Shown here: piece by piece, positions 3,124-36,715 of the stretch
Layout of the letters: the number at the start of each line of letters is the position of its first letter
Numbering within the stretch: the first letter of the stretch is position 1
Source of the DNA: Antrihabitans auranticaus
Lineage (GTDB): Bacteria > Actinomycetota > Actinomycetes > Mycobacteriales > Mycobacteriaceae
DNA length: 64,000 nucleotides
Assembly: GCF_016481275.1 (NCBI RefSeq)
Contig: NZ_JAEMNW010000001.1
Span: forward strand, 248,001-312,000
Direction of reading: 5' to 3'
Made by a program: the position numbers and the translations under genes
The notes under the pieces: model-generated
Told to the model about the DNA's origin: nothing
Databases searched by the model: none
Seen by the model: only the letters and a program-made list of their open reading frames with translations

Positions 3124-3684
3124 TCAGATGCGGCGGGCCGCCATGATGGACATCGAGTGCAACGGCGCGTACTGCACCGGCGTGCCGGAGGTCGACGCGT
3201 GGATGATGTTGCCGTTGCCGGCGTACATCGCGGCGTGGCCGCCACCGTTGTAGATCAAGATGTCGCCGGGGCGAAGGTCGTCAAGCGAAACCGCGTAGCC
3301 GGCGCCTGCCTGCGAACCACTGGTGCGCGGCACGCCGATTCCGGCCTGGCTGTACGCCCACTGGACGAGACCCGAGCAGTCGAACGCGTCCGGGCCGGAG
3401 GCGCCGTAAACATAGGGCGAACCGAGCTTGGACTGCGCCGCGGCAAGCGCGCGCTCTCCGACTGCCTGGACGGGCGCGATGGGGGTCGGCAGAGCGAACG
3501 GGGCGGGCAGGTTCGAGATGCCGGGGATGCCGGCGACACCTGGGATGTCGACAACTCCGAAGCCGGGAACGTCGACCGGTTCGGCCATCGCGGGGGCGGC
3601 AGTCGGGACAATCATCGCGCCGAGTGCGAGGGCCCCGGCGACGGCAGCCCGACGCGCGGGTCGATGCGTGGTGTTAAGCGCCAT
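3124..3684 (-). CDS. Secreted NlpC/P60 peptidoglycan hydrolase, small form
   Basis: 186 residues: a signal peptide (RRAAVAGALALGAMIVPTAAPAMAEP), a Pro/Gly-rich linker of about 45 residues with repeated PG and IPG steps, and a C-terminal NlpC/P60 domain. Catalytic Cys lies in FDCSGLVQW and His in GHAAMY; a third polar residue is in IIHAST. The family cleaves gamma-D-Glu/mDAP bonds in peptidoglycan. It has no coiled-coil regulator, unlike its neighbour. Control appears to be by a c-di-AMP riboswitch in the leader (3713-3859) and by the promoter element at 3891-3920. It ends before a strong hairpin, so it is probably transcribed alone. Confidence 0.9.
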   Translation of the reverse strand: MALNTTHRPARRAAVAGALALGAMIVPTAAPAMAEPVDVPGFGVVDIPGVAGIPGISNLPAPFALPTPIAPVQAVGERALAAAQSKLGSPYVYGASGPDAFDCSGLVQWAYSQAGIGVPRTSGSQAGAGYAVSLDDLRPGDILIYNGGGHAAMYAGNGNIIHASTSGTPVQYAPLHSMSIMAARRI

Positions 3685-3712
3685 GAAAAGTTGTGCTCCG
3701 TTTCTTCCGTTC

Positions 3713-3859
3713 GTCCACCGGCCGGGTTAGCTGACGGGTTCGGGCTCGGAAGTGCCCTACCCACCGAGTCGCGCTGTACGCGGTCCGGCGGGATTCACCC
3801 CAGTCGAAACCTGGGTTCCCGGCTCGTTCGCTCATGAGAGCGTCCGATTAGGCGGTGAC
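3713..3859 (-). ncRNA. c-di-AMP riboswitch (ydaO/yuaA class)
   Basis: The minus-strand leader carries the class hallmarks in order: CCGGGAACCCA, then CTGGGGTGAAT, a variable stem, GGGTAGGG, and CCCGAACCCGTCAGCTAACC. A closing helix can form between GTCACCG (3853-3859) and CGGTGGAC (3713-3720) with one bulge. In actinobacteria this riboswitch commonly precedes cell-wall hydrolase genes and usually switches them off when c-di-AMP binds. Here it sits 28 bases before the NlpC/P60 start codon. I see no classic terminator, so the output mechanism is unclear. Confidence 0.92.
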
Positions 3860-3890
3860 CTGCAGTGCTGCACGAGGTAGTCCAGCAAGA

Positions 3891-16246: not shown

Positions 16247-18172
16247 ATGTGCGGACTGCTCGGATTTCTGACGTCGAACGGAACGAGCGACGACGCCGTT
16301 GCGCAGGTCGATGCAGCCATGCACTGCCTGCGGCACCGCGGCCCTGACGAGCACGGCACGTGGCATGACGACGACATAGTGCTCGGCTTCAACCGCCTGT
16401 CGATCATCGACATCGAGCATTCGCATCAGCCGCTGCGCTGGGGTCCGCCATCCAACCCCGATCGGTACGCCCTCACCTTCAACGGTGAGATCTACAACTA
16501 CCTCGAACTGCGCGCCGAACTGACGGAAAAGCACGGCGCACAGTTCCATACGGAGGGTGACAGCGAGGCGATCGTCGCAGCCTTACATCATTGGGGCCCG
16601 ACGGCGGTCACGAGATTGCGCGGCATGTTCGCGTTCGCGATCTGGGATACCGAGACGCGGGAACTCTTCCTTGCGCGCGACCCCTTCGGCATCAAGCCGC
16701 TCTTCCTCGCGTCCGGGCCGAACGGCACGGCGTTCGGCAGTGAGAAGAAGAGCCTCCTCGAACTGGCACCGCTCATCGGGATCGGCACCGATCTCGACCC
16801 GCGCGCAATCGAGCACTACACGGTACTGCAGTACGTGCCCGAGCCCGAATCCCTGCACAAAGACATTCAGCGTCTCGAATCGGGCAGCTACGCCCACGTT
16901 CGACCTGGTGACACCCCAGAGGTGACGCGCTATTTCCAGCCGAAGTTCCGGGTCCGGCCGTTCGTCAAGGGCACAGAGGCCGCGCGCTACCGCGAGATCG
17001 CGGATGCGCTCGAAGATTCGGTCGCCAAGCACATGCGCGCGGACGTCACGGTCGGGTCTTTCCTGTCCGGCGGAATCGACTCCACGGCGATCGCCGCGCT
17101 GGCGATGCGGCACAACCCGAAACTCATCACCTTTACAACGGGTTTCGAGCGGGAGGGCTATTCGGAGGTCGACGTCGCAGCCGAATCCGCTGCAGCGATC
17201 GGCGCCCGCCACATCGTCAAGGTGGTCAGTCCCGAAGAGTTCGCAAACGCCATCCCCGAGATCGTCTGGTATCTCGACGACCCGGTCGCGGACCCCGCGC
17301 TCGTGCCGCTCTACTTCGTTGCCAAGGAAGCGCGCAAGCACGTGAAGGTCGTGCTGTCCGGTGAAGGCGCAGACGAGTTGTTCGGCGGATACACCATCTA
17401 CCGGGAACCGCTGAGCCTCAAGCCGTTCGAGCGCCTCTCCCCCGGACTGCGCCGCACCGCCGCTCGGCTCTCGGACAAGATGCCGGAGGGCCGCCGCGGC
17501 AAAAGCTTGCTGAACCGCGGCTCGATGACGCTCGAGGAGCGCTACTACGGAAATGCCCGCAGCTTCAACGACGCCCAGTTGCGCAGGGTACTGCGCGACT
17601 TCCGGCCCGAGTGGACCCACACCGATGTCACCGCACCCATCTATGCGCGCTCGGAGGGCTGGGATCCGGTCACACGAATGCAGCACCTCGACCTCTACAC
17701 CTGGCTGCGAGGGGACATCCTCGTCAAAGCCGACAAGATGACGATGGCGAACTCGCTCGAGCTGCGCGTGCCGTTCCTCGACCCCGAGGTGTTCGCGGTG
17801 GCCGAGCAGATCCCGCTCGAGCAGAAGATCACCAAGGACACCACGAAGTACGCCCTCCGCCAGGCACTCGAAGGCATCGTTCCCGGCCACGTACTGCACC
17901 GCGCGAAGCTGGGCTTCCCCGTGCCACTACGGCATTGGCTGCGCGGGCCGGAGCTGTTCGACTGGGCGCACCAGCAGATCGACGAATCGCAGACCGATCA
18001 CCTGCTCGACAAGGCCGCCATCAAGAGCATGCTCGACGAGCACCGGGCAGGCACCACAGACGCCAGCCGGCGTCTGTGGACACTGCTCGTCTTCATGATC
18101 TGGCACGGCATCTTCGTCGAGAAGCGGATCGTGCCGAACATCCAAGAGCCCGAGTACGAGCTGGCACCTTAG
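16247..18172 (+). CDS. asnB: AsnB/LtsA glutamine amidotransferase (peptidoglycan mDAP amidation)
   Basis: 641 residues. The N-terminal class II glutaminase starts MCGLLGF with the catalytic Cys directly after Met, which fixes the ATG at 16247; RHRGPDE and NGEIYN follow. The C-terminal synthetase domain has the PP-loop SFLSGGIDST (near residue 278) and LSGEGADELFGGY. Although annotated as asparagine synthetase, the actinobacterial 640-residue form (LtsA in Corynebacterium and Rhodococcus, AsnB in mycobacteria) amidates meso-diaminopimelate in peptidoglycan precursors and affects lysozyme and antibiotic resistance; I infer that role here. GAGGAGG lies 11 bases upstream. The stop overlaps that of the convergent acyl-CoA synthetase. 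Confidence 0.92.
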   Translation: MCGLLGFLTSNGTSDDAVAQVDAAMHCLRHRGPDEHGTWHDDDIVLGFNRLSIIDIEHSHQPLRWGPPSNPDRYALTFNGEIYNYLELRAELTEKHGAQFHTEGDSEAIVAALHHWGPTAVTRLRGMFAFAIWDTETRELFLARDPFGIKPLFLASGPNGTAFGSEKKSLLELAPLIGIGTDLDPRAIEHYTVLQYVPEPESLHKDIQRLESGSYAHVRPGDTPEVTRYFQPKFRVRPFVKGTEAARYREIADALEDSVAKHMRADVTVGSFLSGGIDSTAIAALAMRHNPKLITFTTGFEREGYSEVDVAAESAAAIGARHIVKVVSPEEFANAIPEIVWYLDDPVADPALVPLYFVAKEARKHVKVVLSGEGADELFGGYTIYREPLSLKPFERLSPGLRRTAARLSDKMPEGRRGKSLLNRGSMTLEERYYGNARSFNDAQLRRVLRDFRPEWTHTDVTAPIYARSEGWDPVTRMQHLDLYTWLRGDILVKADKMTMANSLELRVPFLDPEVFAVAEQIPLEQKITKDTTKYALRQALEGIVPGHVLHRAKLGFPVPLRHWLRGPELFDWAHQQIDESQTDHLLDKAAIKSMLDEHRAGTTDASRRLWTLLVFMIWHGIFVEKRIVPNIQEPEYELAP

Positions 18173-19767
18173 CGGGACCGCAGCACGAACCGCTGGACCT
18201 TTCCACTAGGCGTCTTCGGCAAGCCGTCGACGAAGTGCACGGTCCGCGGGTAGGCGTGGGCCGCGAACTTCTTCTTGACGAGGGTCTGGAGTTCGGTTTC
18301 GAGTGCCGGCGTCCCCGCGTAACCGTCGCGAAGGACCACGAACGCTTCGAGCACCTCGCCGCGCAGCTCGTCGGGCATGCCGACCACTGCGGCCTCCGCT
18401 ACCGAATCATGCAGTACCAGAACGCTTTCTACGTCGAACGGCCCGATGCGGTAGCCGGCCATGATGATCACGTCGTCGTCGCGCGCGGAAAAGAAGTAGA
18501 ACCCTTCGTCGTTCACCATGCCGGCGTCGCCGGTGATGTACCAGCGCCCGTCCGCCGTGTAGCGCGACGCCGTCTTTTCGGGCGCGTCCAGGTAGCCGGA
18601 AAACCACAGCAGCGGACTGTTCGCACAGTCGATCGCGACCCGGCCCATCTTTCCGACCGGCGCGACGTCGTCGGAGCCGTCTTCGAGCACGCCCGTCGTC
18701 CAACCGGGCAGCGGTCGGCCCATCGATCCGGCCGGGACGTCGCGACCGACCTCGTCGTGCCAGCCGTTGGCGATGAACATGCCGTGCTCGGTCTGCCCGT
18801 AGTGGTCGCGGACCGCAACACCCAGCGTGTGCGCCGACCACGACACGACGTCGGGTGTGAGCGGCTCCCCCGCCGACGACGCGCGGCGCAGCGACACCGC
18901 CGGACTACCGCCCGCCGCGCGCAGGCTCCGATAGACGGTCGGGGCGGCCGCGAAGTTGGTGACGCCGAACCGCTCGATCACTTTCCAGGTGAGGTCGGCC
19001 GAGAAGCCGGCGTGCAGCAGGATGCTCCGCACGCCCGCGGCCAGCGGCGCGATGAGCGCGTAGTAGAGGCCGTATGCCCAGCCGGGGTCGGCGGCGTTCC
19101 AGAACACGTCGTCCTTGCGGACGTCCAACCCGAACTCCTGATACGCGTGGAACGACGCCAGCGCGCGGACCGGTACGGGCACGCCCTTCGGCGTTCCAGT
19201 GGTGCCGCTCGTGAAGATTTGCACCAATCGCGCGTCGGCTCCCATCGCCGCTGCCTCGAATTCCGGTGAACCGGCGGCGAGCAGGTCTGCGAATCGCAGC
19301 TCAGCGCCTGTCCCGGCACCCGCGGCGATAACCCGCCACGGCGCATCTGCGGGCATGTCCTCGCCCGGTTCGAGCTTGGGCAGCTGATCCGTGTCCGCGA
19401 CGACGACCTTCGCGGCGCTGCTCTCGAGGCGGAACGCGATCGCCGGGGGCGCAAACGCGGTGAACAGCGGCACGTGGACCGCACCGAGACGCCAGATTCC
19501 GACCAGGGCGACGACCAACTCGGCCGACTTGCCCATCAGCGTCGCCACGTGGTCGCCGGGCTCGACGCCGAGGTCTGCCAGCGCGGAGGCGAAGCGAGTC
19601 GACTGCTCTTGCAGCTGACCGAACGTCAGGTCGGTCGAGGTCAGGTCGCTTTCGACGACCGTGAATGCGACGTCGGCGCTCGGGTGGCGGTCGCACAGCA
19701 GGTACGCCGCACAGGCGTCGGGGGTGTCGTACTGGGCAAGCAATTCACGCACACGTGCAGCCGTCAT
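18169..19767 (-). CDS. AMP-forming acyl-CoA synthetase (ANL family)
   Basis: 532 residues. The P-loop-like motif IFTSGTTGTPKG is near residue 190, the central WNAADPGWAYGLYYALIAPL resembles acetyl/propionyl and medium-chain acyl-CoA synthetases, and DHYGQTEHG and the hinge ITGDAG follow. The C-terminal Lys for adenylation is in PKTPSGKVQR. It activates a carboxylic acid as acyl-AMP, then acyl-CoA; the chain length or aryl substrate cannot be read. AAGGAG precedes the ATG at 19767. It diverges from a LuxR-type regulator, with a direct-repeat site between them, so local regulation is likely. It could supply the acyl group to the nearby NRPS, but that is speculation. Confidence 0.85.
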   Translation of the reverse strand: MTAARVRELLAQYDTPDACAAYLLCDRHPSADVAFTVVESDLTSTDLTFGQLQEQSTRFASALADLGVEPGDHVATLMGKSAELVVALVGIWRLGAVHVPLFTAFAPPAIAFRLESSAAKVVVADTDQLPKLEPGEDMPADAPWRVIAAGAGTGAELRFADLLAAGSPEFEAAAMGADARLVQIFTSGTTGTPKGVPVPVRALASFHAYQEFGLDVRKDDVFWNAADPGWAYGLYYALIAPLAAGVRSILLHAGFSADLTWKVIERFGVTNFAAAPTVYRSLRAAGGSPAVSLRRASSAGEPLTPDVVSWSAHTLGVAVRDHYGQTEHGMFIANGWHDEVGRDVPAGSMGRPLPGWTTGVLEDGSDDVAPVGKMGRVAIDCANSPLLWFSGYLDAPEKTASRYTADGRWYITGDAGMVNDEGFYFFSARDDDVIIMAGYRIGPFDVESVLVLHDSVAEAAVVGMPDELRGEVLEAFVVLRDGYAGTPALETELQTLVKKKFAAHAYPRTVHFVDGLPKTPSGKVQRFVLRSR

Positions 19768-19806
19768 GTCGTCTCTCCTTCGATCGCCACGGGGTGTGGC
19801 TCGGGC

Positions 19807-19838
19807 TTCAAATGGGAAGCTCGCACTTTCAAATAGGA
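19807..19838. promoter_or_regulatory. 21-base-spaced direct repeat, candidate LuxR-type operator
   Basis: TTCAAATGGGA at 19807-19817 and TTCAAATAGGA at 19828-19838 match at 10 of 11 positions, 21 bases apart start to start (two helical turns), in the divergent region between the acyl-CoA synthetase and its neighbouring regulator. The second copy overlaps TAGGAT, a possible -10 for the regulator gene. Confidence 0.5.
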
Positions 19839-19954
19839 TGTAGGTCACACCGGCCTGCCCACCACCCCCGGAAAGGGGTATCCCCTCGCCCACCCGACCG
19901 ACCGCCCTGCTGCGACCACGAGACGGCGACGCGCTGCGCGCCGAGCTCCGGCTG

Positions 19955-20746
19955 ATGGCTGCCCAGATCGATACCCCCGTCCTGTTCGGTGGCGAGGTAC
20001 AGAACGGTCACCTCCAGCTGACTGAATTCGTGGGTACCTGGACGAGTGGCTTGAACGGTTTGGTCATCCCCCCACGCTCGGGTCTCGGCGGACGTGTGAT
20101 GGACCAGTTGCGCGCGGCATCGGTTGCCGACTACGCCAACTCGTCGTCGATCACCCATCACTACGACGGCCCTGTTCTCGGCGAACGCATCCGTTCGGTG
20201 CTGGCCGTTCCGGTTGTCGTCGACGGCAAAGCCCGCGCGGTTCTCTACACGGCCGATCGCGGGACCACGCCCATCGGCGACCGTACGGCGGACCACGTGA
20301 TCGGCGCGTGCCGTCGGCTGGCCACCGAGATCGCGATTCGCGACGAGGTCGACCGCCGGCTCCGCATGGTCGACGCGGCGGCGACGGAGCGAGCGGTCGA
20401 CGGCGTACAGACCGAAGAACTCCGCGGGATTCATGCGGAGTTGCGCGGCATCGCGCAGGGCGTCGACGACGCCGGCCTGCAGCGGCGCCTGCGCGCAGTC
20501 AGCGAAAGGCTCGCGCGCTCGATCGCGGGTGATGTAGCTCCCGGGGGTGCTGTTGCGCTGTCGCCCCGCGAGCTGGACGTCCTTTCTCAGGTCGCACTTG
20601 GCTGTACCAATCAGCAAGCAGCGCAACGACTGTCGGTCGGACCGGAGACGGTGAAGAGTTATCTGCGCAGTGCGATGGCAAAGCTCGACGTGCGGTCGCG
20701 CAACGAGGCCGTCGTTGTTGCGCGGCGACTGGGACTACTGCCCTAG
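19955..20746 (+). CDS. GAF-like sensor with LuxR/NarL-type DNA-binding domain
   Basis: 263 residues from the first ATG. An N-terminal GAF-like sensory domain (about 10-130, LFGGEV ... SGLGGRVMDQLRAASVADYAN ... IRSVLAVPVVVDGKARAVLYT) precedes a helical linker and a C-terminal LuxR-type helix-turn-helix (about 195-260: LSPRELDVLSQVALGCTNQQ ... ETVKSYLRSAMAKLDVRSR). There is no phosphoacceptor receiver domain, so a small ligand is the likely signal. The coding look extends about 15-20 codons upstream (ALLRPRDGDALRAELRL) without an ATG, GTG or TTG. The true start may be a CTG at 19907 or 19910. It probably controls the divergent acyl-CoA synthetase. Its stop overlaps that of the convergent exporter permease. 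Confidence 0.8.
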   Translation: MAAQIDTPVLFGGEVQNGHLQLTEFVGTWTSGLNGLVIPPRSGLGGRVMDQLRAASVADYANSSSITHHYDGPVLGERIRSVLAVPVVVDGKARAVLYTADRGTTPIGDRTADHVIGACRRLATEIAIRDEVDRRLRMVDAAATERAVDGVQTEELRGIHAELRGIAQGVDDAGLQRRLRAVSERLARSIAGDVAPGGAVALSPRELDVLSQVALGCTNQQAAQRLSVGPETVKSYLRSAMAKLDVRSRNEAVVVARRLGLLP

Positions 20747-21606
20747 CGCCGACTTGCGCGGAAGTATCCGAGCAACGCCGGAGCACCGAAGACGGCGATC
20801 AAGCCCGCCGACCACAGCAGGGACCCGATGAGCGGACCCTGGACGGGTCCGCCGAGCGACAGGCCCTTCATCGCCTCGATCGTCAGCGACATGGGCTGAT
20901 ACTCCACGACCGGCTTGATCCACAGCGGGAACGCGAAGACCGGGACGAAGCCCGTGCTGAAGAACATCATCAGCGAGCTCAGCAGCGAAATCGCTTCGAC
21001 GAGTGTTGCTTTCGCCGTGAAGACTGCCGCGGCGGTCACGAGAACCGAGAACGCGATGCCGAACATCAGCGGCACCAGGATGAACGCGACGGCAGGCAGA
21101 AAGCCCTGATCGAACCGGAAGCCGAGGGCGATGCCGGCGATGAGGAGCACGATCGTCGTCAACAGAATCCGCACACCCTCCGCGACGATTCGGGCCAGCA
21201 GCCCGGACGCGCGATGGACGGGCAGTACCCAGAAGCGAGCGAGCAGACCCGAATCCCGTTCGCGGCCGAGCGCGACCGCACCGGCCATGGAACCGGACAT
21301 GACGCCGACGAGGGTCGTCATCGGCACAGTGCCGTAGAGGGCGTTGTAATCGGCGTACTTCGTGATCTGGTTGCCCAGCACGGTGTTCAGCATGATCAGC
21401 AGAAACGCTGGGAAGACCAGGGCCTGCAGGACGGTCAGCGGATCACGCGACCAGCGCAACAACAATCGCTGGGTCTGCACGAACGTGTGCGGGATGAGCA
21501 CACCCAGCGCGTTCTCGCGATTTCTACGATGACGCGAGTGTGGCTTGTCGGGCACCGACTGCGTCTCGAGCGTGTGTTTGGCGACTCCGGGCTGCGCGGT
21601 CATCAT
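20743..21606 (-). CDS. ABC-2 type export permease (second permease, DrrC-like)
   Basis: About 287 residues. A basic N-terminal cytoplasmic tail of about 45 residues is followed by six hydrophobic segments, with the ABC-2 signature region FPAFLLIMLNTVLGNQI at the first helix and MMFFSTGFVPVFAFPLWIKPVVEYQPM before the last. It pairs with the neighbouring permease and the ATPase to form an exporter, most like daunorubicin DrrAB(C) or the mycobacterial DIM exporter. GAGGAGG ends two bases before the ATG at 21606; a second ATG at 21603 has more usual spacing. Start and upstream stop overlap (ATGATGA). It is last in the NRPS operon. Confidence 0.88.
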   Translation of the reverse strand: MMTAQPGVAKHTLETQSVPDKPHSRHRRNRENALGVLIPHTFVQTQRLLLRWSRDPLTVLQALVFPAFLLIMLNTVLGNQITKYADYNALYGTVPMTTLVGVMSGSMAGAVALGRERDSGLLARFWVLPVHRASGLLARIVAEGVRILLTTIVLLIAGIALGFRFDQGFLPAVAFILVPLMFGIAFSVLVTAAAVFTAKATLVEAISLLSSLMMFFSTGFVPVFAFPLWIKPVVEYQPMSLTIEAMKGLSLGGPVQGPLIGSLLWSAGLIAVFGAPALLGYFRASRR

Positions 21607-22421
21607 GGCCTCCTCGATGTCACGTAAACCGCGAACGGCGCGAACACGACGACAAGCCCGATGACCCACGCGAGCGGTGGGCCCATTGTCGGCCAGTCGA
21701 CGACTCCGGCGCCGTCCGTGGTGTCCCCGGCCAGCGCACGCATGCCGTACGCGAACTGTGAGACGGGCTGGTTTCGCACGAATCCTTCGATCCAGTCCGG
21801 GAATTGGCTGGCGGGCAGGAAGCCGGCGGACAACATGCCCAGGATCAACTGGGGCAACGTCAGCGACTGGGTGGTCGCTTCGGGGCTCTTCGACAGCGAA
21901 CCGATGACGTCTGCGCCGAGCGAGAGCGCCGCGCCGACCGCGAGCGCGAACAAGAGGAAGCCGGCCGTATAGAGCGGGCCGTTCTCGAACCTGAACCCGA
22001 TCACGTACCCGCAGACGATGGCCGCCGCGATCGAGATCACGCAGCGGTACATGTTCGCCGACATGCGCGCCGCGAGTGGTACGCCGGTACCGATCGGCAT
22101 CGAGCCGAAACGCTTGTTGATGCCGTCGACCGTGTCCGTCGCCGCCCGGAAGGCCGCCGAGATCGCGCTGAATGCGAGTGCCTGCAGCACGATCATCGGC
22201 ATCAGGAACTGCGCGAAGCTGCTCATGTGATGCGGCGGGTTGTCCTTGGGGAACGACATCACGAGGTTCAGCGGAATGTAGAAACCCACGGTGAAGACAA
22301 CTGGGGTGAGAATCGCGGTGAACACCTCGCCGTTGCGCAACGTCGGCGTGATCAGTCGAACGGTCAGCACCCACCATTGGCGGAAAACCGAAGGATTCCG
22401 GTCGATCGTCATTGCCGTCAC
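21603..22421 (-). CDS. ABC-2 type export permease (first permease, DrrB-like)
   Basis: About 272 residues with six hydrophobic segments. FRQWWVLTVRLITPTLRNGE precedes the first helix, and AGFLPASQFPDWIEGFVRNQ before the last helix is the family's conserved loop. It should form a heterodimer with the following permease. The GTG at 22421 overlaps the ATPase stop (GTGA) and lies 10 bases after GGAGGAGG; an in-frame ATG at 22412 is an alternative. The open frame extends upstream to 22700, but that part lies inside the ATPase gene. Confidence 0.88.
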   Translation of the reverse strand: MTAMTIDRNPSVFRQWWVLTVRLITPTLRNGEVFTAILTPVVFTVGFYIPLNLVMSFPKDNPPHHMSSFAQFLMPMIVLQALAFSAISAAFRAATDTVDGINKRFGSMPIGTGVPLAARMSANMYRCVISIAAAIVCGYVIGFRFENGPLYTAGFLLFALAVGAALSLGADVIGSLSKSPEATTQSLTLPQLILGMLSAGFLPASQFPDWIEGFVRNQPVSQFAYGMRALAGDTTDGAGVVDWPTMGPPLAWVIGLVVVFAPFAVYVTSRRP

Positions 22422-23398
22422 GATGCGTTCACCTCCTCCGGAACCTCGGCCGCATGCCCGGTCAGGCTGAGGAACACGTCGTCGAGCGATGGCCGCCGCA
22501 GCGCGATGTCGACGAGTTCGATCTGTTCCTGATCGAGGCGGCGCAGCGCCTCGGCCAGCGTCTTGGCGCCGTCCGGCGCGGGTACGGCGATCCGGTCGGA
22601 GCTGTCGGTGAGCGCCGCACGGTATTCGTCGGGCAGCAGCGAACCGAGCGCCGCGACGATCTGCGGAATGTCCTTGAGCCGTTGCGGCACGATCTCGCAA
22701 TAGCTACCGCCGGTGCGCGCCTTCAGCTCGTCTGCCGTGCCTTCGGCGATGACGGTTCCGTGATCGATGACGATGATCCGGTCGCTCAACGCGTCGGCCT
22801 CCTCCAGATACTGGGTCGTCAGCAGTGTGGTGATGCCCAGGTTCTTGAAATTGGTGACGAGGTCCCACACCGCTTGGCGGCTGCGCGGATCGAGGCCGGT
22901 CGTCGGCTCGTCGAGGAAGACGACCTCGGGCCGGACGACCAGACCGCACGCGATGTCGATGCGCCGGCGCATACCGCCCGAGTAGGTCCCGACTCGACGG
23001 TCCGCAGCGCCGACGAGGTCGAATTCCTCCAGCAGCTCCTTGGCACGAGTCCGCGCGACGGATTTCCGCATACCGAGGAGGCGACCGAACATGAGGAGGT
23101 TCTCGTAGCCCGTGAGCAGGTCGTCGAGCGAGGCGTGCTGGCCGGTCAGCATGATCGACCGGCGCACGCCGGCGGGGTCGCTGACCACATCGTGACCGGC
23201 GACGATCGCCCTACCGCTGTCCGGACGCACCAGAGTCGACAAGATGCTGACCGTGGTCGTCTTGCCCGCACCGTTGGGTCCGAGCACGCCGAGGACCTCG
23301 CCCTTGGCGACCTGGAAGCTGATCCCGCGCAACGCATGGACCTCGCCGAACGACTTCTTGATCTCGTCGACTACGACGGACGGTTCTGATTCCCGCAT
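22418..23398 (-). CDS. ABC exporter ATPase (DrrA-like)
   Basis: 326 residues. Walker A GPNGAGKT is near residue 40, followed by a Q-loop region (MLTGQHASLDDLLTGYENL), the signature YSGGMRRRIDIA, Walker B VVFLDEPTTGLDPRSR and the switch His region in TTLLTTQYLEEAD. The roughly 90-residue C-terminal extension with LRRPSLDDVFLSLTG is the DrrA-type tail that contacts the permease. It powers export of the product of the preceding peptide synthetase, an inference from its position 33 bases after the NRPS stop. GGAGA lies nine bases before the ATG. Confidence 0.92.
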   Translation of the reverse strand: MRESEPSVVVDEIKKSFGEVHALRGISFQVAKGEVLGVLGPNGAGKTTTVSILSTLVRPDSGRAIVAGHDVVSDPAGVRRSIMLTGQHASLDDLLTGYENLLMFGRLLGMRKSVARTRAKELLEEFDLVGAADRRVGTYSGGMRRRIDIACGLVVRPEVVFLDEPTTGLDPRSRQAVWDLVTNFKNLGITTLLTTQYLEEADALSDRIIVIDHGTVIAEGTADELKARTGGSYCEIVPQRLKDIPQIVAALGSLLPDEYRAALTDSSDRIAVPAPDGAKTLAEALRRLDQEQIELVDIALRRPSLDDVFLSLTGHAAEVPEEVNAS

Positions 23399-23431
23399 GT
23401 GATTTTCTCCAACAGGTTCGGTGGTCGGGGG

Positions 23432-26400
23432 TCAGGACGCTTCGCGGACGGCCGAATCGGCGCGCAAGCGCCGATCCAGAACCGCTGCGATGTCCGCAAG
23501 GGCACTCGGTGTCGTCATGTCGTCGTGGCCGGCGTCGACATCGTGATTTTCGCGTTCGCCGGTGACGTAGGGCTGCCAGCTGTCGACAGCCGTACCTGAC
23601 GCGTCGGGTTCGGCTGCCGCAGTGAAGAAGAGCAGGTCACCGTCGAATACCTCCGGATCATGTCGAGCGAGCATATGCGCGGATTGGTTGTAGGCAGCGG
23701 TCATTCGCACCAAATGTCCGGAGTCGACGAACCCCGCGCCGCCGATGCTGCTGCGCACGATCTCCGCAGCTTCCTCGGCGGTCAAGTTGGGCGGGATGTC
23801 GTCGAAGCCGAACACCTTGCCGAACTCTGCGAAGAACCCACCCACGTCCAGCGGTTCGGGCGCGGGCAGATCCCGTACGCCGAGATCGGCATCGAGCAGA
23901 GCCAGCAACGACACCGTCTCGCCGAGGCTCTGCAGCCGAGTCGCGACGGCCTGCGCGATGAAGCCACCGAGCGACCAGCCCAGGATGTTGTACGGACCGT
24001 GCGGCGCAACGGTTCGAATCGCGAGCACATAACGGTCGGCGAATGCCGCGATCGTTTCCGGACGTTCCTCGACGCCTTCTAGTTCCGGGCTCTGCAATCC
24101 GTAGATCGGGACATCCGGGTCGATCAACGCCGCGAGACCGGCGTAACTCCACGCCAGACCCGATGCGGGGTGGATGCAGAACAAGGGTGCGGCCGAGCCC
24201 GAGGTGCGGATCGGCAACAGCACCGCCAACGGCGAGGCTGCCGGTTCGGCCGCACCGTCGGAATGCCGGGCAATCCGGCGCGCGAGGGCTTCCACCGTCG
24301 GATCGTTGAAGATCCACATCACCGGAACATCCAATCCGACAGCAGATCCCACGACATCGACGAGCTTCGTCGCAATCAGGGACGTGCCGCCGAGATCGAA
24401 GAACGATTCGTCGATACCGACGGCGTCGAGTCCGAGCACCGCGGCGAACGCTGCCGCCACCGCTTCCTCGAGCGGCGTCCGTGGCGCGCGGACCGTCCGT
24501 GAGCGTGCGGAGAAGTCCGGCGCCGGAAGCGCTTTCGTGTCCAGTTTGCCGACCGGTGTGAGCGGAATCGACTCGAGGACGACGATCGCCGACGGCACCA
24601 TGTAACCGGCGAGCGATTCCGCGATCTGGTCGCGGACCCGATCGACGTCGATTTCGACACCCGGTGCAGGCAAGATGTACGACACGAGAACGGTGGCACC
24701 GGTCGGTCCGGGCACGCCCATGGTCGTCGCGAACTCGACGTCCTCGACGGCCGTCAACGCGGCATCGATCTCGCCCAGTTCGATGCGGAAACCACGGATC
24801 TTGACCTGGAAGTCGTCGCGACCGATGTATTCCAGTTCACCATCGCCGTTCCAGCGGACCAGGTCACCCGTCCGGTACATCCGTTCGCCGCCGGAACCGA
24901 AGGGATTCGCGACGAACCTCCCGAACGTCAGGTCGGGCCTGTTGCGGTAACCCCGCGCCAGCGCCTCGCCCGCGAGGTACAACTCGCCGACCACGCCGAC
25001 CGGCACCGGCCGCAACCAGGCATCCAGGACGAGCAGCGACGCCCCACGAATCGCCGTACCGATGGTGACCGGTGCGCCCGGCGCCATCGCACCGGTGCCG
25101 GTCGCCCAGATCGTGAATTCCGTCGGGCCGTACAGGTTGGCCATCGTCCGGTCGGATGCCCACCGAGCAACCAAGTCCTGCCCGACCGCCTCACCGGCCA
25201 CGGTGAGCACGCGCAGGCACTCCAACCCAGCGGGTTCCATCGTCGACAGCGCTGCGGGGGTGATCACCATGTGCGAGACCTGCTCGGCGGCGATCAGGTT
25301 CGCCAGTTCGCGTCCGCCGAGTATCGACGGCGAGACCGCGACCAGTCGCGCACCCGACCCGTAGGCCATCAGCGCCTCGAAGGCAGACGCGTCGAAACTC
25401 GGCGACGCGAAGTGCAAGACCGCCGCGTCCGCGGTGATACCGAGCGAATCCCGCTGCGCGCGGACAAGATTTGCCAGCCCACGATGGGTGACGGCGACGC
25501 CCTTGGGCACACCGGTGGAGCCGGACGTGTAGATCAGCCACGCCGGCTGGTCGAAGAGCATGGGAGTTATTCGGTCCGAGTCGGTGATCGGATCGGATGA
25601 TTCAGCCCACACTGCGGCGACGACCGCCGGATCGTCGAGCACCAGCCACTCGGTCGTGTCGGGCATCGGCTCTCGATGAGCCTCGACGGTGACCCCGACG
25701 ACGGCGCGCGAGTCGTTCAGCATGTGCGCGATCCGGTCGGCCGGGTGCTTCGGGTCGACGGGCACGAATGCCGCGCCGGTCTTCGCAACCGCCCACATGG
25801 CGACAATCGATTCGACCGACCGCGTCAACGCCAGCGCGATGACCTTCTCAGGTCCGGCTCCCGCGGCGATGAGCAACCGGGCGAGCCGGTTGGACCGCTC
25901 GTCGAGTTCGGCATACGACACGTGCACGCCGTCCGCAGTCAGGGCGATTCCGGTCGGGTTTGCCGCCGCGGCTGCGGTGAACACCTCCGCGAGGGTGACG
26001 GGTTCGAGCGGCGCGTCCGTCGTCGGCGCGGTCAGCTGTGCCCGTTCTTCCGGCGAGAGTAGTTGCAGCGCGGCGGTGTTGACGTCGGGTCGGGTGGCGA
26101 ACGCATCCAGAATCCGCGCCAGGCGATCTGCAAGTACCGCCACCGCGGCCCGGTCGAACACCGCGGCAAGCGATTTCAGCTCCAGCTTCAACTGCTCACC
26201 CGGCATCGTCAGCAGTGTGAGCGGATAGTGCGTGTCATCGAATGCCGCAACGTCACCGACCCGCATGCCGGCGATGTCCATCGTCTGCAGCAGTTCGTCC
26301 TGGTCTATCGGGTAGGACTCGAAGACCGTCACCGTGTCGAACAACGCGCCGACGCCCACCGCATGCTGAATCTCCGCGAGACCGACGTACTGGTGATCGA

Positions 26401-29400
26401 GCAATGCGGTCTGCTGACCTTGAATCCGATCCAGCAGGGCAGCAATCGATTCCGCCGGGTTCAACTTCACGCGCATCGGCAACGTGTTGATGAACAGCCC
26501 GAGCATCGATTCGACGCCCGCGATCTGCGCAGGCCTGCCGGAAACGGTAGTACCGAAGATCACGTCGTCCCGACCGGTCATGCCGGCGAGCAACACGCCC
26601 CACGCGGTCGACACGATCGTGCTGAGCGTGACGCCCTGCTCCCGCGAAAGCTCTGTCAGGGCCGTCGTTTCCGCGACAGGTAGTTCGATCGTCACGGCCA
26701 CCGTTTCGGGCGTGTGCGCCTCGTTCGGATCGAGCGCAGGCGCAACCAGGGTCGGCTCGTCCACTCCCGCAAGCGCATTCGCCCATGCCGCATGAGAAGC
26801 GGGCCTGTCCTGCCTGCCGAGCCATGCGAGGAAGTCCCGGTACGACCGCACCGGCGGCAGCACCGACGCATCGGCATTCGCGGCATACAGCACGAACAGA
26901 TCCTGGATCAGCAGCGGCATGGACCAGCCGTCGACGAGGATGTGGTGGCACGAGATCACCAGGCGGTAGGACTCCGCAGCTGTTCTGACGAGCCGCAACC
27001 GCAGAAGCGGCGGCTTCGACATATCGAACCGTTCTGCCCGGTCGAGTCCGAGCACGCGGTCGATCTCCGCAGGTTCCGCAGCGGTGCAGTCGTTGTGCCG
27101 CACGACGAGCCGAGCGTGCGGTAGCACCACCTGGACCGGGTCACCACCCCGGTCGAGGAAGGCGGTCCGCAGGTTCGGGTGCCGATCGATCAGTGCCTGC
27201 CCGGCGCGCTGCAGCCGGTCGGCGTCCACAGGACCCTCGAGATCGAGCACCATCGACACGGTGTACGGGTCCACGCTCTCACCTGCGAGGAGTGCATAGA
27301 ACAGCAACCCGGCTTGCAGCGGCGCCAGCGACCACACATCCTCGAAGCCCGGGAATTGCTGCTCCCAGCCTTCGATTTCGGTCTGCGTCGTCGAAACGAG
27401 AGCAAGATCCGACGGCGTGAACCCACCGGCGTCCTCGGATGCGCTGTGTTCGGCCAGCGCCGCCAGCGCGTCTTCCCACAGTTGCGTCAGGGTTGCCACC
27501 TGCTCGGCGTCGAGCAGGCCCGCCGGGTAGCGGAAGGTTGCGGTCAGTTGCGGACCGTCGGCACCCTCCTCGGTGACCGCATCGATGGCGATGACGGCAG
27601 TAGCGGGCATCTCGTCGTCGTGCGTGCCGTCGAACGCCTCGCGACCGGTGACCGGCAGGAACGGTCCCTCGGGCAGGGCGCCACCGGTACGGCCGAGGTA
27701 GTTGAAGCTGATCTGGGGGGCACTCAGTTCGCGCAGGAGTGCACTCGTCGACCTGTTGACGTAGCGCAGCAGACCGAACCCGATGCCCTGATCGGGCACC
27801 GCGAGCAGCTGCTCCTTCACTCGCTTCACTGCGGCCCCAGCCGCCTGGCCGCCCGCGAAGGCCTCGTCGAGGTCGATGTCCGCGACGTCGAATCGGACAG
27901 GGAACACCGAGGTGAACCAGCCTGCCGTCCGCGAAAGATCGGCTCCGACAACCTCTTCCTGCCGGCCGTGCCCCTCGAGGCTGAGCAGCACCGAACCCGC
28001 AGCCGCCTCACCCCGCCAGCGCTCCACTGCCAGGGCGAGTGCCGCGAGCAACCCATCGTTGACGCCGCCGCGGAATTTCTCCGGCAGCGTCGTGAGGAGC
28101 CGATCCGTGACGTCGACAGGAATCCGGACTCGAATCTGCTCGACGGTCGACGCCGTGTCCAGTGCTGGATCGAGGCCGCGACTGCCGATCGTGGGATCGG
28201 GGCCGCCGAGAATGTGGTGCCACATGTCCAGTTCGGCAATCCGGGCATCGGAGTTGGCAACGTCGACGAGTCCGTGCGCCCACCGGCGCAGCGAGGTGCC
28301 GACCGGCGGCAGCACCGGTTGCTTGCCATCGACGACCTGCGCCCATGCCGAAACGAGGTCCGGTATCAGGGTGCGCCAGGTGACTCCGTCGACCGCGAGG
28401 TGGTGGATCACGAGCCACAGGCGCGGCTCGCCCTCGTAGCTGTCGGTCGGGTCGAACCAGACCGCCTGCACCATCCGGCCCTCGTCGGGCTCCAACTGAT
28501 CGGCGGCAATCGAAAGTTCGCGCGCCGCAACGGTGTCGAAGTCGGTCTTACCGCTGACCCGAACACGGTGGATGATGCCGTCGGCGGCGACAGACCCCAC
28601 CGGCAGCACCTCGAACGACCATTCGCCGTACTCGCGAACGAGCTTGGCGCGCAACGCGTCGTGATGATCGAGGACAGCCTGCAGTGTGGCCGCGATCGTC
28701 GCCCGCTTGATCCCGGTCGGCAGCGACAGCATGACGGCCTGGCTGAATCGATCGAAGCTCGCTTTCGAGTCGACGAGCCACGACACGATCGGCGTCAGCG
28801 GAACGGCGCCGACGCCACCACCCGGAAGTTCGTCGACGACGTCGATGCGGTGATCGGCATCGCCTCTGGCACCGGCGATCTCCGCGAGGCCGGCAACGGT
28901 CTTGCGTTCGAACACGTCACGGGGAGTGAAGTGGACACCCGCCGCCTTCGCCCGCGAGACCAGCTGAATCGACATGATGCTGTCCCCGCCGAGCGCGAAG
29001 AACGAATCGTTGACACCGACCTCGTCCATACCGAGGGTCTGGGCGAACAGCGCGCAGAGTTGCACCTCCATCTCGTTGGCCGGAGGGCGCGAGGCCGCAC
29101 CGACCTTGACGAACGTCGGACGCGGCAACGCCTTTCGATCGAGCTTGCCGACCGGAGTCAACGGGATGAAGTCGAGAAACTCGATCGCCGTCGGCACCAT
29201 GTAGGACGGCAACGACTTCCCCACCAGGTCGCGCAGCTCCTCGCCGTCGACCTCGGAATCCTTCGCCGCGAGCACGTAGGCAACGAGAACCGTAGCGCCG
29301 GTGGGACCTTCGACGCCGATCGTGGTCGCGAACTCGATACGCGGGTCGGCGGTCAGCGTCGCGTCGATCTCGCCGAGCTCGATCCGGAAACCGCGGACCT

Positions 29401-32400
29401 TCACCTGGAAATCGCTGCGGCCCAGGTACTCCAACGCACGAGAGTCGGTCCACCGGACCAAGTCCCCCGTGCGATACATGCGCGCACCGGGCGAACCGAA
29501 CGGGTTGGCGACGAAACGGCCGCCTGTGAGGTCCGCGCGATTGTGGTAGCCACGCGCCAGGCTCGGGCCCGAGAGGTACAGCTCCCCCACGACGCCTGCC
29601 GGGACGGGTCGTAGCCAGGTGTCGAGGACGAGCGCGGTCGCGCCTCGAATCGGACCACCGATGTCGATCGGCTTGTCGGCCGCCATCGCGTCGGATCCTG
29701 TTGCCCAGATGGTGAATTCGGTCGGACCGTAGTGGTTGAGCATGGTGCGGCCCGTACTGTTTTCCCCTCGCTCCGCTCCACCGCCCGACCAGCGCGCGAC
29801 CACCTCCTGCCCGACCGCCTCGCCGGCCACCGCGAGGAACCGCACACATTCGAGGTCCGCCGGATTGACCGTTGCCAGTGCCGCCGGCGTGATGATCATG
29901 TGCGATACCTCTTCGGTGGCGATCAGCTGCGCCAGATCGTCACCGCCGAGCACGGTCGGCGGCACGATGACCAGCCGGGCACCCGACCCGAATGCGAACA
30001 ACGCCTCCGAGACCGACGCATCGAAGCTCGGCGACGCGAAGTGCAGGAATCGCGAGTCGGCGGTCACCGACATTTCGTCGTGTTGTGCACGAACGAGATT
30101 CGCGAGTCCGCGATGAGTTACCGTCACACCCTTCGGCACACCTGTCGATCCCGAGGTGTAGATCAGGTAAGCCGGATGATCGATGTGGAGCGGGTCGATT
30201 CGCTCGTCCGGAGTGACCGGCGCCGTGGATTCCTTGGCCAGCAGCCGGGACGTCCACGGATCGTCGAGTTCGAGCCAGTCGAGCTGACCTGGCAGACCTG
30301 CCCTGATTTCCGCCGTCGTCACGCCGACCACAGCGCCGGAATCGGTGAGCATGTGGACGATGCGATCTTCCGGATGCTTCGGATCGATCGGCACGAACGC
30401 GGCACCCGTCTTGGCCACTGCCCACACCGTCGACACGGACTCGATCGACCTCGTCAACGCGACGGCCACGAAGGTCTCGGACCGGGCGCCCGACCGGATG
30501 AGCACCCGGGCAAGCTGATTGGACCGCTCGTCGAGTTCGCGGTAGGTCACCGATGTGCCTTCGAAACGCAGCGCGACGGCGTCAGGATCGAGTGCGGCTG
30601 CGTCGGTGAGGATTTCGGGCAGCGTGCGCAACGGAAGCGCTTCCGGCCCCGACATCGAGGTCAGCTCAGCACGCACCACCGGCTCGCAGGGCTCGATCAC
30701 CGCGACGCGGGTATCGGGCGCGGTCGCCATGAGATTCAGGTAACGCACGCACCGCGCGACGAGTTCCTTGGCACCCGCATCGTCGATGGCCGCTGTCAGG
30801 TACTTGAGCGTGACCGTCAAAGACTGACCCGGAATGACCATGACGCTCAACGGATATGGCGTTGCGTCCGAACCGTCGGCATCGAGCACTCGCATGCCGG
30901 CGATGTCGAGCGATTGGGCGAGCGCCTTGCGGTCGACGGGATAGGACTCGTAGACCGTCAGCGTGTCGAACAACTCGTGCAGACCGACCGCCTGATGGAT
31001 CTGCGACAACCCGACGTGCTGGTGATCGAGTAGTGAACTTTGCTCGATCTGGATGCGGGTGAGCAACTGCGCCAACGTTTCCGCGGGATCGAGCGCCACA
31101 CGGACCGGGAGCGTGTTGATGAACAGACCCAGCATCTGCTCGACGCCCGCGAGCTGCGGGGGCCGCCCGGAGACGGTGCCGCCGAACACGACATCGGTGC
31201 GGCCGGTCAGCGTTGCGAGCACCATCGCCCACGCCGCCTGCACCGCGGTGTTCATCGTGACGCCGTATTCGCGCATCCGTGCAGTGAGCGCGGCAGTCGT
31301 CTGCGCACCGAGCCCGAGACTCGTTGCGCCCGCCTCGGAAGTGGCGACGAGGTGGTCGGTCGACATCACTCTCGTGGCGGAGTCCACGCCGGCGAGCGCG
31401 TCCTTCCATACGGCGAGGCTCGCAGCCTGATCCTGCTTGCCGAGCCACGCCAGATACTCCTTGTAGGAGCGGGCGGGCGCAATTTGGCCGACACCTTCGA
31501 ACGCCGCGTACAGGCCGAGCAGTTCCTGCACCAGCAGCGGTGTGGACCAGCCGTCGAGCAGAATATGGTGACCGGTCATGACCAGCCGGTAGCGATCGGC
31601 AGCGGTGCGAATCAGCATGAACCGCAACAGCGGTGGCGTCGCCGTGTCGAAACGCGTGGTGCGATCCTCTGCGAGGAGTCGCTCGATCTCCGCGGCGCCC
31701 AGCTCCTCGTCGAGATCGCTCAGGTCGACCGATCGCCAGAGCACCGCGACGTCACCGAGCACGATCTGGCGCGGTCCGTTCGGAGTCTCGAGGAACGCCA
31801 CTCGCAGATTGTCGTGCCGGTCGAGCAGAGCCTGTGCTGCCGCTCGCAGCCGTTCCTGATCGACGGTGCCGGCCAAGGTCAGGATCGACTGGTCCGTGTA
31901 CTCGTCGGTGCTGCCCGCGGCGAACACCGCGTGAAAGAGCATGCCGGTCTGCAGCGGTGACAACGGCCAGACATCGGCGAGCGACGGGTAGGCCCGCTCC
32001 CACAGTTCGATCTCGGGCTGGCTCGTCGGCACCAGGTCGAAGTCCGATGGCGTGTGACCGCCCGCATGCGGCGACTTGGCATGGGCTGCAACGCCACCCA
32101 GTGCCACCATCCACAGGTCGACGAGCTGACGCACGTCTGCCTCGCTCAGCACACCGGTCGCATAGGTCCAGGTGACAGCGATGTGCTGCCCATCGGGTCC
32201 GTCCTCGACGAGCGCGTCGACCTCGATCGCCGCCCGCAGCGGCAACAGCGAGTCGCGAACGCTGACAAAGGAGGTCGGCCGCCACGCACCCTTGGTACCC
32301 AGTCCGGTCCGGCCGAAGTACCCGAAGCTGATCTGCGGCAACGGTCCTGCCGCCAGGTCTGCACCTGTATCGGCATCGGCAGCGCCATCGGCATCAGCAT

Positions 32401-35400
32401 GGGTATAGCGCAGCAGGCCGTAGTTCAGGCCCTCGTCCCGAACTGCTCGCAACTGTTCCTTGATCTGCTTCAAGGCGATTCCGGCGTGCCTGCCGCCAGT
32501 GAAGGCGTCGTCGAGATTGACCTCCGCCAGGCTCAACCCGGCGGGGTGCGCTGTAGCGAAGGCCCCGACGGTACGTGCCATGTCGGCGCCGACACCGTCC
32601 AGCGCGTGGCGTCCGCCGCCGGAAACGGACACGAGCAGCGAATCGCATACCACGCCGCGCTCCCGCCGGAACCGGCTGACCGCCATCGCGAGTGCGGTGA
32701 TCAGGCCATGCGACGGATCGCTGTGGAAGCGGTCGGCGAGGACATGGATCAAGGTACGTGTGAGGGCCGACGGCACCGAGACATGCACCTGAGCCGACGC
32801 TTCGACGACGTCGATCCCCGGATCGAACGCGCGAACGCCGAGCACAGGGTCGGGCGTCTGCAGTACCCGCCGCCAGGTATCGAGCTCCAGAAGCCGTTCG
32901 GCCACAGCAGCTTCCGAGCTTATCGCGTGCGACCAAGCCCGCAACGACGTACCACCGGCTGCCAACTCCGGTTGCGCGCCGGTGCTGATCTTGTTCCACG
33001 CCGCTGCCAGATCGCCGACCACGCTGCGCCAGGAATCGAAATCGATGACCAGCCTGTGGATGACGAGCCAGAGCAAGCCCGTCCGATCGTCCTCCGGATC
33101 GAGCCAGACCGCCTGCGTCACCGCACCCGCGGTCGGGTCGAGTCGACCGGTCGCGGCATCCAGTTCACGCTGCGCGAGCAGGCGCATGTCCTCGCCCGGT
33201 GCCGCACGAACGTGGTGGAGTATCGCGGCTGCGCTCACCGAACCGACCGGGCCGACGTCGAGCATCCAGTCGTCGAATTCGCCTTCGTAGCATTCGGTTT
33301 CCTGCTCGGTGCCCGAAACGATGACACGCATTGCGGCGCGCAGCATGTCGTGCCGATCCAGCACGGCCTGCAGGGCTGCGGTCAACTTTTCCGCATCCAC
33401 GTCGGCGGGCAGCTGCAGCAGAACCGCCTGTGCGTCGCGGTCGAACGGTGCGTCGCGGGACAGCATTTCGAGCGCATTCGGTGTCAGCGCAAGATGACCC
33501 ACCGCGCCACCCGGCAGCTCCTTGAGTCGACCAGCTGCTTCACCGAGGTCCGTCGCCACCGCGGCAAGGCCGGCAACTGTCTTGAGCTCGAACACATCTC
33601 GTGCCGTGAATCCCAAACCTGCTGTCTTGGCGCGCGATACGAGCTGGATCGACACGATACTGTCGCCGCCGAGTGCGAAGAAGCTCTCGTCGACACCGAC
33701 CGTCTCGACACCGAGGACCTCGGCGAACAGCTTCGCGATCGCATGCTCGCGCGGTGTGGACGGCGCACGTCCGAGACCGCCCGTCGGTGCGAATATCGGC
33801 TCCGGCAGAGCTTTTCGGTCCACCTTGCCCGAAGGGCTCAGCGGGACCGTGTCGAGCACCATGATGACCGACGGCACCATGTAGGAGGGCAAGAATTCTT
33901 CGACGAAATGCTTCACGGCCACCGTGTCGACCTTGGCGTCGGGGACCGCGCTCACGTACGAGACCAGTACGGTCGCACCCGCGGGCGTCTTCGCACCTAC
34001 TGTCACCGCAAAGTCCACCGAGGCGTGCTGCGCGAGAGCGGAGTCGATTTCACCAAGCTCGATCCGGAAACCGCGGATCTTGACCTGGAAGTCGGTGCGT
34101 CCGACGAACTCCAGATTCAAGTCTGCGCCGATCCCCCTCGCTCCGCTCGGCCGTTCCGTCCAGCGGACGACGTCCCCGGTGCGATACATCCGCTCCCCCG
34201 GCTCGCCGTACGGGTTCGCGACGAACCGGGATGCCGTGGTGGCGAACAGATTCGCGTAGCCACGCGCAAGTCCCGGACCGGCAAGGTAGAGCTCGCCACC
34301 GGCGCCGACCGGCACAGGCTGCATCCAGCGGTCCAGCACGACGGCGCGCACTCCGCGCAGCGGCCCACCGATGGTGACCGGCTCGCCGGGCAGCAGGACC
34401 GCCGAGGTTGCCGTGATGGTCGCTTCGGTCGGTCCGTAACCGTTCGTCATCCGGCGTGTCATGGCCCAGCGCGCGACCAACTCCGGCGGGCAGACGTCAC
34501 CACCCACGACGACAGCCTCGATGTCGGGCAGCACCGCCGCATCGAGGGACGACAGCATCGCCGGTGCGACGTCGAGATGGGTCACCCTTTCCGCGCTGAG
34601 TACGTTGCTCAGCTCCTCGCCGCCGATGATGCCCGGCGGAACGATCACCAGCGTGGCGCCGGTTCCGAACGTCACGAGCAACTGCTCGACCGACGCATCG
34701 AAACTCGGCGAATAGGCGTAGGAGATACGGGATTCCGGGGAGACACGCAGGTCGGAACGGCGGTCGTCGATGAGGTTCGCAAGGCCACGGTGCGTGACGA
34801 ACACACCCTTCGGCAGCCCCGTCGATCCCGAGGTGTAGATGACGTATGCGGGGTTGCCGACCCGCACCGGCGCACGGCGGTCGGCGTCGGTGATCGGCTC
34901 GCTCGATAGTTCGGCGACGAGTTCTTCGGTCGCCGGATCGTCGAGCACGACCCAGCTCAGGTGATCCGGCAGTACGGCCTGCGACGCGGTCACCGTGATG
35001 CCGACGACAACGCCGGAATCTGTGATCATGTGCTCGATACGGTCGGCCGGGTAGGTCGGGTCGACGGGTACGAACGCAGCACCGGACTTGGCCACAGCCC
35101 ATACCGACAGCACGGACTCGATCGATCGCGAAACAGCGATGGCGACTGTGGATTCCGGTCCGGCGCCGCCCGCGATGAGCAGTCGCGCCAGCCGCGACGA
35201 CCGTTCGTCGAACTCTCGGTAGGTCATGCCCCGATCGCCCTGCGACAGCGCCTGACCGTCCGGATTCGCCGCGACACCGGCTGCGAGAACCGCCGGGAGG
35301 GTGCGCTCTTCGAGGTCCGCCGGACCGCGCACGGGAAGGAGCGTCTCGCGCTCCTCATCGTCGAGTAGCGGCAGCGACGACAGCAGGCAGTCCGGTCCGC

Positions 35401-36715
35401 CGGCGAGGAAGCGTTCGAGATAGGCGAGGAAGCGACCGTGCTGGCGGCGCAGGTCGTCGTCGGTGTACAGGTTCGGGTTGGCCTGGAAGTCGATGTGCGT
35501 ACGTTCCTCGCCCGCTGCGGGATACACGTTGACGAACAGGTCTTCCATGAGGCCGGAGGTGAGGACGTTCAGCCGGCCGACCACCGAGCCGAGAGAGATG
35601 TTGTCGAACATCATGATGTTGACCGACGGACCGAACGACGCGGCCTCGTCGGGTGCGTAGCCGAGATCCCGGAAGATGTCTTCCTGCCGATACCGCTGCC
35701 GGCGCAACGCGCCGGTGAGTTCCAACTGAGCGGACCGGATCAGCTCCCCGACCGTGGAATGCGAGCCGATCGTCAGGCGCAACGGGACGACGTTCGCGAC
35801 CATGCCGCCGGAACGGCGCAGCACCGCGGTCGTGCGCGCGGATACCGGCAGGCTCAGCATCACATCGTCGGTACCGGTCATCCGGCCGAGGAACGCACCG
35901 AAGGCCGCGACGATCACCGGTGCAATGCTGGCGCCGCCGCCGCTGGCGACCGACTCGAGCAGATCGGCCGTGTGGTCGGGCAGGCCCGCACTGAACAGGC
36001 GGGGGTGCGCGTTCGGCGGGGCGGTCCGACCGGCGAGGCTGACTGCCTGCGGCGCGCCGGCGAGATGCTCGGCCCAATATTCCTTGTCGTTTCCGAACCG
36101 GTCCGATCCGCGGTATTGCATGTCGGAGGCCACGATTGCGGCCAGGTCCTCGGCGCGACTCGCGGGCTGGGGGGCACCCGCGACCGCAGCGCTGTACAAC
36201 TCGGCGGTTCGTTGCACGAGCGTCATCGCCGCAAAACCGTCGAGCGCGATGTGGTGGATGCGCGTGTACCAGAAATAGTGGTCGTCCCCGAGTCGCAGCA
36301 CCGTCGAGTTGACGAGGCGATCCCGCAGCAGATTGAGCGGGGCGGTGAACTCCGCCCGCATCCACTCCTTGGCTGCCGCAATCGGATCCGGCGTGGCTTG
36401 CGCCAGATCGAGGTACTTGGGCTTGGCGTCGAGCGTCCCGTCGACCATCTGGAACGGCACGCCGTCGACCTCGATCAGCCGCAGGAAGCCGGACCCGAAC
36501 TCCTTACCCGACTGCACACATGCGTTTTCCAGCGCCTCGATATCGAGCGCACCGACGATCTCCACGTACTGCGCGATCGAGATCGGCGCCGAGCCCGCAA
36601 GGTGCTGGGCAAACCAGATCCCGCGCTGGGCGGCCGAAAGCGGAAAAGCTCCCGGTGGCACACCGGGTAATAGCTCCGTCGGTGAGGTTGATCGCTGCTG
36701 CATGTCTTCTCTCAT
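23432..36715 (-). CDS. Three-module nonribosomal peptide synthetase (C-A-T-E-C-A-T-E-C-A-T-TE)
   Basis: 4427 residues on one chain. Module 1 has an EntF-like starter condensation domain (about 15-450; HHIALDG at 154-160), adenylation (about 472-985), carrier Ser1019 in LGGDS and an E-type domain (about 1070-1520). That domain has HRLVIDF (1220-1226) instead of HHxxxDG, so it is probably inactive. Module 2 has condensation (HHILLDG, 1716), adenylation (about 2028-2540), carrier Ser2579 and an intact E domain (HHLAVDG, 2771-2777). Module 3 has condensation (HHILVDG, 3257), adenylation (about 3572-4075), carrier Ser4112 and thioesterase (GWSLGG, Ser4248). An N-capped tripeptide is predicted. Hand-derived pocket codes are DAEDVGGIT, DASIAAHIW and DAFVTALIW. 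The first suggests a cationic residue; the other two look apolar or aromatic. GGAG lies five bases before the ATG. No MbtH gene is in the window. Confidence 0.95.

Follow-up and report, generated by a model that had tools for sequence, protein, structure and literature searches.

At the locus considered here, which lies within a 64,000-nucleotide window of the genome of Antrihabitans auranticaus, a mycolic-acid-type actinomycete, four genes follow one another on the minus strand: a three-module NRPS of 4427 aa (23432..36715), a DrrA-like ABC ATPase (22418..23398) and two ABC-2 permeases, the first in the DrrB position (21603..22421) and the second, of about 286 aa, DrrC-like (20743..21606). 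The NRPS stop and the ATPase start are separated by 33 bp, the GTG start of the first permease overlaps the stop of the ATPase gene, and an ATGA junction (4-bp overlap) joins the two permeases. The second permease appears in the list of open reading frames as a 544-aa ORF (20743-22377) because its frame stays open upstream of the true start. Gene calls together with Pfam and TIGRFAM models agree with the first-pass annotation, which had described a four-gene NRPS plus DrrABC-like operon on one strand, with the same 33-base spacing and two separate, overlapping permease genes. Upstream, the NRPS gene is flanked by a divergent amino-acid permease gene. At its other end the operon converges with the gene of a LuxR-type, RamA-like regulator (19955..20746, plus strand), beyond which lies an acyl/acetyl-CoA synthetase-like gene (18169..19893, minus strand). 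A promoter and terminator scan gave no signal above chance.

The domain order of the NRPS, read from Pfam, motif positions, a condensation-family scan of the own genome and an HMM parse, is C-A-T-E-C-A-T-E-C-A-T-TE, as originally proposed; Pfam matches Condensation, AMP-binding, PP-binding and Thioesterase, so that ordered C, A and T modules are followed by a TE. Module 1 consists of C1 (35330..36658), A1 (33812..35284), the carrier domain T1 (33551..33763) and E1 (32081..33508); module 2 of C2 (30680..32002), A2 (29126..30628), T2 (28871..29083) and E2 (27431..28828); module 3 of C3 (26030..27352), A3 (24527..25993) and T3 (24272..24484), with a terminal thioesterase carrying GWSLG (23444..24238), all on the minus strand. 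The pocket codes are DAEDVGGITK for A1, DASIAAHIWK for A2 and DAFVTALIWK for A3, at positions anchored on those of GrsA, the tenth letter (Lys) being assigned by convention and not read. None of the three codes was found printed in the literature searched, and the naming of substrates is therefore inferential. Acidic residues at 239 and 278 suggest a basic amino acid as the substrate of A1. A2 groups with the A2 domains of the g6 relatives (tree support 0.97), and A3 with the common DAFVAALIWK type.

C1 is an N-terminal, Cs-type condensation domain with an intact HHxxxDG motif (HHIALDG) and clusters with all starter C domains of related NRPSs (tree support 1.0). Most Rhodococcus NRPSs likewise start with a C-starter domain (PMC5550956). 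Among solved structures the rhizomide Cs domain ranks first for C1 (7c1k, E 3e-62), followed by the C1 of CDA (~1e-50) and then by EntF (3e-43), an order that favours loading of a fatty acyl group over an aryl cap. These likenesses, read with the terminal TE, lend support to the initial proposal of a synthetase for an N-capped tripeptide. Rhizomide RzmA and CDA CdaPS1 share the N-terminal acylating-type condensation domain; the present NRPS, however, has only three modules, and neither a dedicated ligase gene nor one for an acyl carrier is present in its operon. C2 and C3 cluster with condensation domains placed after an E domain, that is, with the DCL type.

The two E domains, both of which would be working ones on the domain list of the first-pass annotation, turn out to differ. 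In E1 the second, catalytic His of HHxxxDG is replaced by Arg1221 (33053..33055) and the catalytic Glu of EGHGR by Ser1365 (32621..32623); GWFT has become GAFA and FNYLG has become FGYFG. At the sites where E1 departs, related E domains read HHLxxDGVSWR, EGHGR and RTVGWFTSxxPV, and the solved E domain of PvdL has HH and EGHGR in the columns replaced in E1. E2 of the same protein, by contrast, keeps both the catalytic His (HHxxxDG) and the catalytic Glu (EGHGR). The only ortholog found, from a sister species (L020 in genome G003, NRPS 74% identical), carries Arg in place of the catalytic His and Ala in place of the catalytic Glu in its own E1, where the same motif sites are broken as well; since the loss is shared, a sequencing error is ruled out as its source. 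Both catalytic residues are present in 74 of 78 related E domains, the exceptions being the present E1, that of L020, E2 of L090 and E1 of L115, which makes such losses uncommon but not unique. E1 is thus very probably a non-catalytic pseudo-epimerase, judging from its residues.

Against L020, E1 is the least conserved of all domains (55-57% identity, the others 68-90%) and has the highest dN (0.355), with a dN/dS of about 0.19, a rough figure because dS is close to saturation. Together with the unbroken frame, this ratio argues that E1 persists as a folded domain. The AlphaFold model of E1 has a mean pLDDT of 88.8 and finds E domains as its best Foldseek matches, so E1 is predicted to fold and, on the rough estimate above, seems to be under purifying selection. 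No E1 relative above 46% was found outside the own genus, here represented by 4 genomes, in a search of ~400 genomes of the order. An in-line E domain without the catalytic motif, kept across related clusters, is also known from diperamycin/aurantimycin-type NRPSs (PMC10888640). There, however, the dead E domain follows glycine, whereas E1 here stands in a module whose pocket is of the basic type and is succeeded, one module later, by a working E domain. The degenerate E domains of L090 (module 3) and L115 (module 1), both from Nocardia-like loci, arose independently; the A3 code of L090 and the A1 code of L115 depart from the family consensus in the very modules concerned, and loss of E function may track substrate swaps.

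The exporter genes are recognised with unequal clarity by family models. The ATPase scores 401 bits against TIGR01188 (drrA, cut-off 312) and has a weak match to the Pfam tail model DrrA1-3_C. Both permeases exceed the cut-off of TIGR00025; the drrC model TIGR01248 gives 161.9 against a cut-off of 165.65, and the first permease gives no match to the drrB model TIGR01247. When starter-C and DrrB homologs were tallied in 401 genomes of the same family, and the own genome was set aside, 29 of the 32 top-ranking starter-C matches had a DrrB homolog directly downstream on the same strand. A further set comprised 45 NRPS genes coding for 2000 aa or more; most of its loci were picked for having both a starter C domain and DrrB, and because of this choice for proximity it is informative solely on the tightness of the junction. 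DrrABC directly follows the NRPS in 44 of these 45 genes, and in 43 of the 44 the gap to DrrA is at most 50 bp or the genes overlap (median, a 4-bp overlap). In G002, where two NRPS genes stand in tandem, the first of them is the sole exception. The coupling of NRPS and exporter, put forward at the outset, is thus a conserved trait. The DrrABC systems of Streptomyces peucetius (daunorubicin) and M. tuberculosis (PDIM) also consist of an ATPase and two ABC-2 permeases beside a biosynthetic locus, but the present set is attached to an NRPS. A second, more distant DrrABC set, its DrrB 48-50% identical, occurs in the own genome (L024, contig C20, ~285 kb) near an extended NRPS array, one open frame of which spans 10,020 aa.

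Taken together, the locus is best read as a single-transcript operon that makes and exports a small N-acylated tripeptide, with a non-catalytic E1 and a working E2, a reading to which we give a probability of about 0.7. The starter C domain would acylate residue 1, probably with a group taken from a primary-metabolism acyl-CoA; modules 2 and 3 would add two more residues, the TE would release the chain, and the DrrABC-type pump would secrete the predicted peptide. Since catalytic residues are lost in E1 and kept in E2, residue 1 would not be epimerized by E1 and residue 2 would be epimerized by E2, E1 itself being retained between T1 and C2, folded but catalytically silent. From the motifs one expects residue 1 to be L (or to keep the configuration in which it was loaded), residue 2 to be D and residue 3 to be L, where two working E domains would give D, D, L. 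Residue 1 could alternatively be achiral, be loaded as D or be epimerized in trans. The main unexplained mismatch is that between the type of C2 and the dead E1: C2 must take an L donor, or else E1 is not required for residue 1. Being well conserved and of the DCL clade, C2 may still want a D donor.

An acyl-D-D-L product made by two functional E domains is hardly credible: domain models do still label E1 an epimerization domain and C2 is of the after-E type, but the catalytic His and Glu are replaced in two species and three further E motifs are broken. A dispensable E1 that decayed because residue 1 is achiral or loaded as D, leaving the DCL-type C2 unchanged, would account for the clade of C2 and has a precedent in the diperamycin cluster, where an E domain lacking HHxxxDG follows a glycine module (PMC10888640); the deviating A codes of the L090 and L115 modules with dead E domains point the same way. 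The A1 code and phylogeny, however, side with relatives whose E1 is intact (L106, L021), and we consider this explanation unlikely.

The nature of the cap and the role of the pump allow two further departures from the N-acylated, exported tripeptide. The best NCBIfam matches of the whole NRPS include the EntF and MxcG models, and C1 is related in structure, though more weakly, to EntF, which would suit an EntF-like starter domain taking 2,3-dihydroxybenzoate or salicylate to build a catecholate or phenolate siderophore. This is doubtful at best, since the rhizomide and CDA starter domains outscore EntF, the operon has no aryl-activating or aryl carrier genes, and no siderophore uptake genes were seen in the scanned flanks. 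That DrrABC serves self-resistance or general lipid or drug export and sits beside the NRPS by chance could be argued from similar DrrABC sets elsewhere in the same genomes and from a DrrB-DrrC pair that N. farcinica retains at the equivalent site with neither NRPS nor DrrA. Set against this are the immediate adjacency of the genes, mostly overlapping, in 44 of the 45 selected loci and the tally of starter-C matches in other genomes, of which 29 of the best 32 have a DrrB homolog directly downstream; these render a chance placement very improbable.

Relatives of the NRPS differ mainly in where their E domains stand. The present enzyme and its G003 ortholog carry E after modules 1 (dead) and 2; those of G001, G002 and g19 have a single E, in module 1; a further NRPS gene of G002 has E additionally in module 3; the Nocardia-like g22 enzymes have E in modules 1 and 3; and those of g6 have mostly two modules with one E. 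The operon adjoins a nitrobindin-LipE-PBP-GNAT-IspG-RseP-Dxr block, and the same block adjoins an NRPS-DrrABC operon in G001, G002 and G021. In G003 the operon and its nearest neighbours are kept and the surrounding block is not adjacent; in the five Nocardia-like loci tested, NRPS-DrrABC lies at another chromosomal site. The N. farcinica pair (NZ_LN868939.1 'plasmid 2', L150 15100-18120) adjoins nitrobindin-PBP-GNAT-IspG-RseP-Dxr. With an operon beside the block in some lineages and a remnant in N. farcinica, the site looks like an old location for NRPS-DrrABC operons that were rebuilt or lost by lineage. Relatives at this site have an NRPS with an active E1 and no E2, so the position of the D residue appears to have moved between operons here. 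We tentatively propose, as a possibility that falls short of being probable, that the stereochemical programme shifted at one site: an ancestral NRPS with a starter C and an active E1 would have been rebuilt, with E1 losing its function and a module with a new E2 taking its place, and C2, still of the DCL type, would now accept an L donor or use the dead E1 as a structural spacer. If true, DCL gatekeeping becomes testable in a natural enzyme pair. On a G002 contig (C1; L023 and L123), two tandem starter-C NRPSs of 4389 and 3931 aa precede one DrrABC at the same chromosomal site.

By layout, the closest described relative is Nocardia GCF 5, whose trimodular NRPS bears one E domain in its first module and another in the terminal one, is found in 75 of 101 Nocardia genomes and has an unpredictable product (PMC7413640). 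It too is a widespread single-gene trimodular NRPS with E in module 1, but its second E domain lies in the terminal module, whereas that of the present enzyme lies in module 2 behind a dead E1, a placement that departs from the GCF 5 description. The three-module NRPS common to all strains of an earlier Nocardia survey (line 27), likewise of unpredictable product (PMC4035055), is probably also related. The Nocardia-like loci L085-L122 match the GCF 5 layout and have DrrABC directly downstream; this layout, together with similarity to N. farcinica at the DNA level, leads us to infer that g22 is Nocardia and that L085-L122 are GCF 5. Comparable operons that pair a trimodular starter-C NRPS with DrrABC are frequent in the family, and the present operon is one variant of a widespread, chemically uncharacterised acyl-starter NRPS-DrrABC group. 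Within the papers searched, which formed the whole of the comparison, the suggestion of a possibly undescribed product is supported, and none of them describes this architecture; the novelty of the operon had been overstated, GCF 5 being known. For the wider group, too, no product is known in the papers searched; it occurs widely among bacteria with mycolic acids, including Nocardia-like species, and its exporter offers a ready marker for genome mining. If the N-acylated tripeptide with a silent E1 is right, counting E domains mispredicts product chirality in this group, and a natural pair, in which the sister species has a working E1 at this site and the present one a dead E1, could serve to test whether DCL domains enforce donor chirality.

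Supporting functions come from elsewhere in the genome, as anticipated: no MbtH or phosphopantetheinyl transferase was found among the window proteins scanned, and the genome has one MbtH gene on contig C18 and two ACPS-family phosphopantetheinyl transferases on contigs C12 and C19. The acyl-CoA ligase gene at 18169-19893 was considered as a dedicated starter supplier and rejected as unproven, the ligase and LuxR pair not being tied to the NRPS in relatives: it stands beside the operon in G003, but lies well apart from the NRPS in the Nocardia-like G344, and in G392 its contig is not that of the NRPS. In the locus and the relatives compared, the operon has no acyl-CoA ligase linked to it. Because of these separate locations, and because the regulator resembles RamA of acetate metabolism, the pair was not counted among the pathway genes, and the LuxR-type regulator probably stands outside the pathway. 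Elsewhere in the window, a c-di-AMP riboswitch (Rfam RF00379, 71.3 bits, gathering 38) lies at 3700-3864 on the minus strand, upstream of a short minus-strand ORF (3124-3684).
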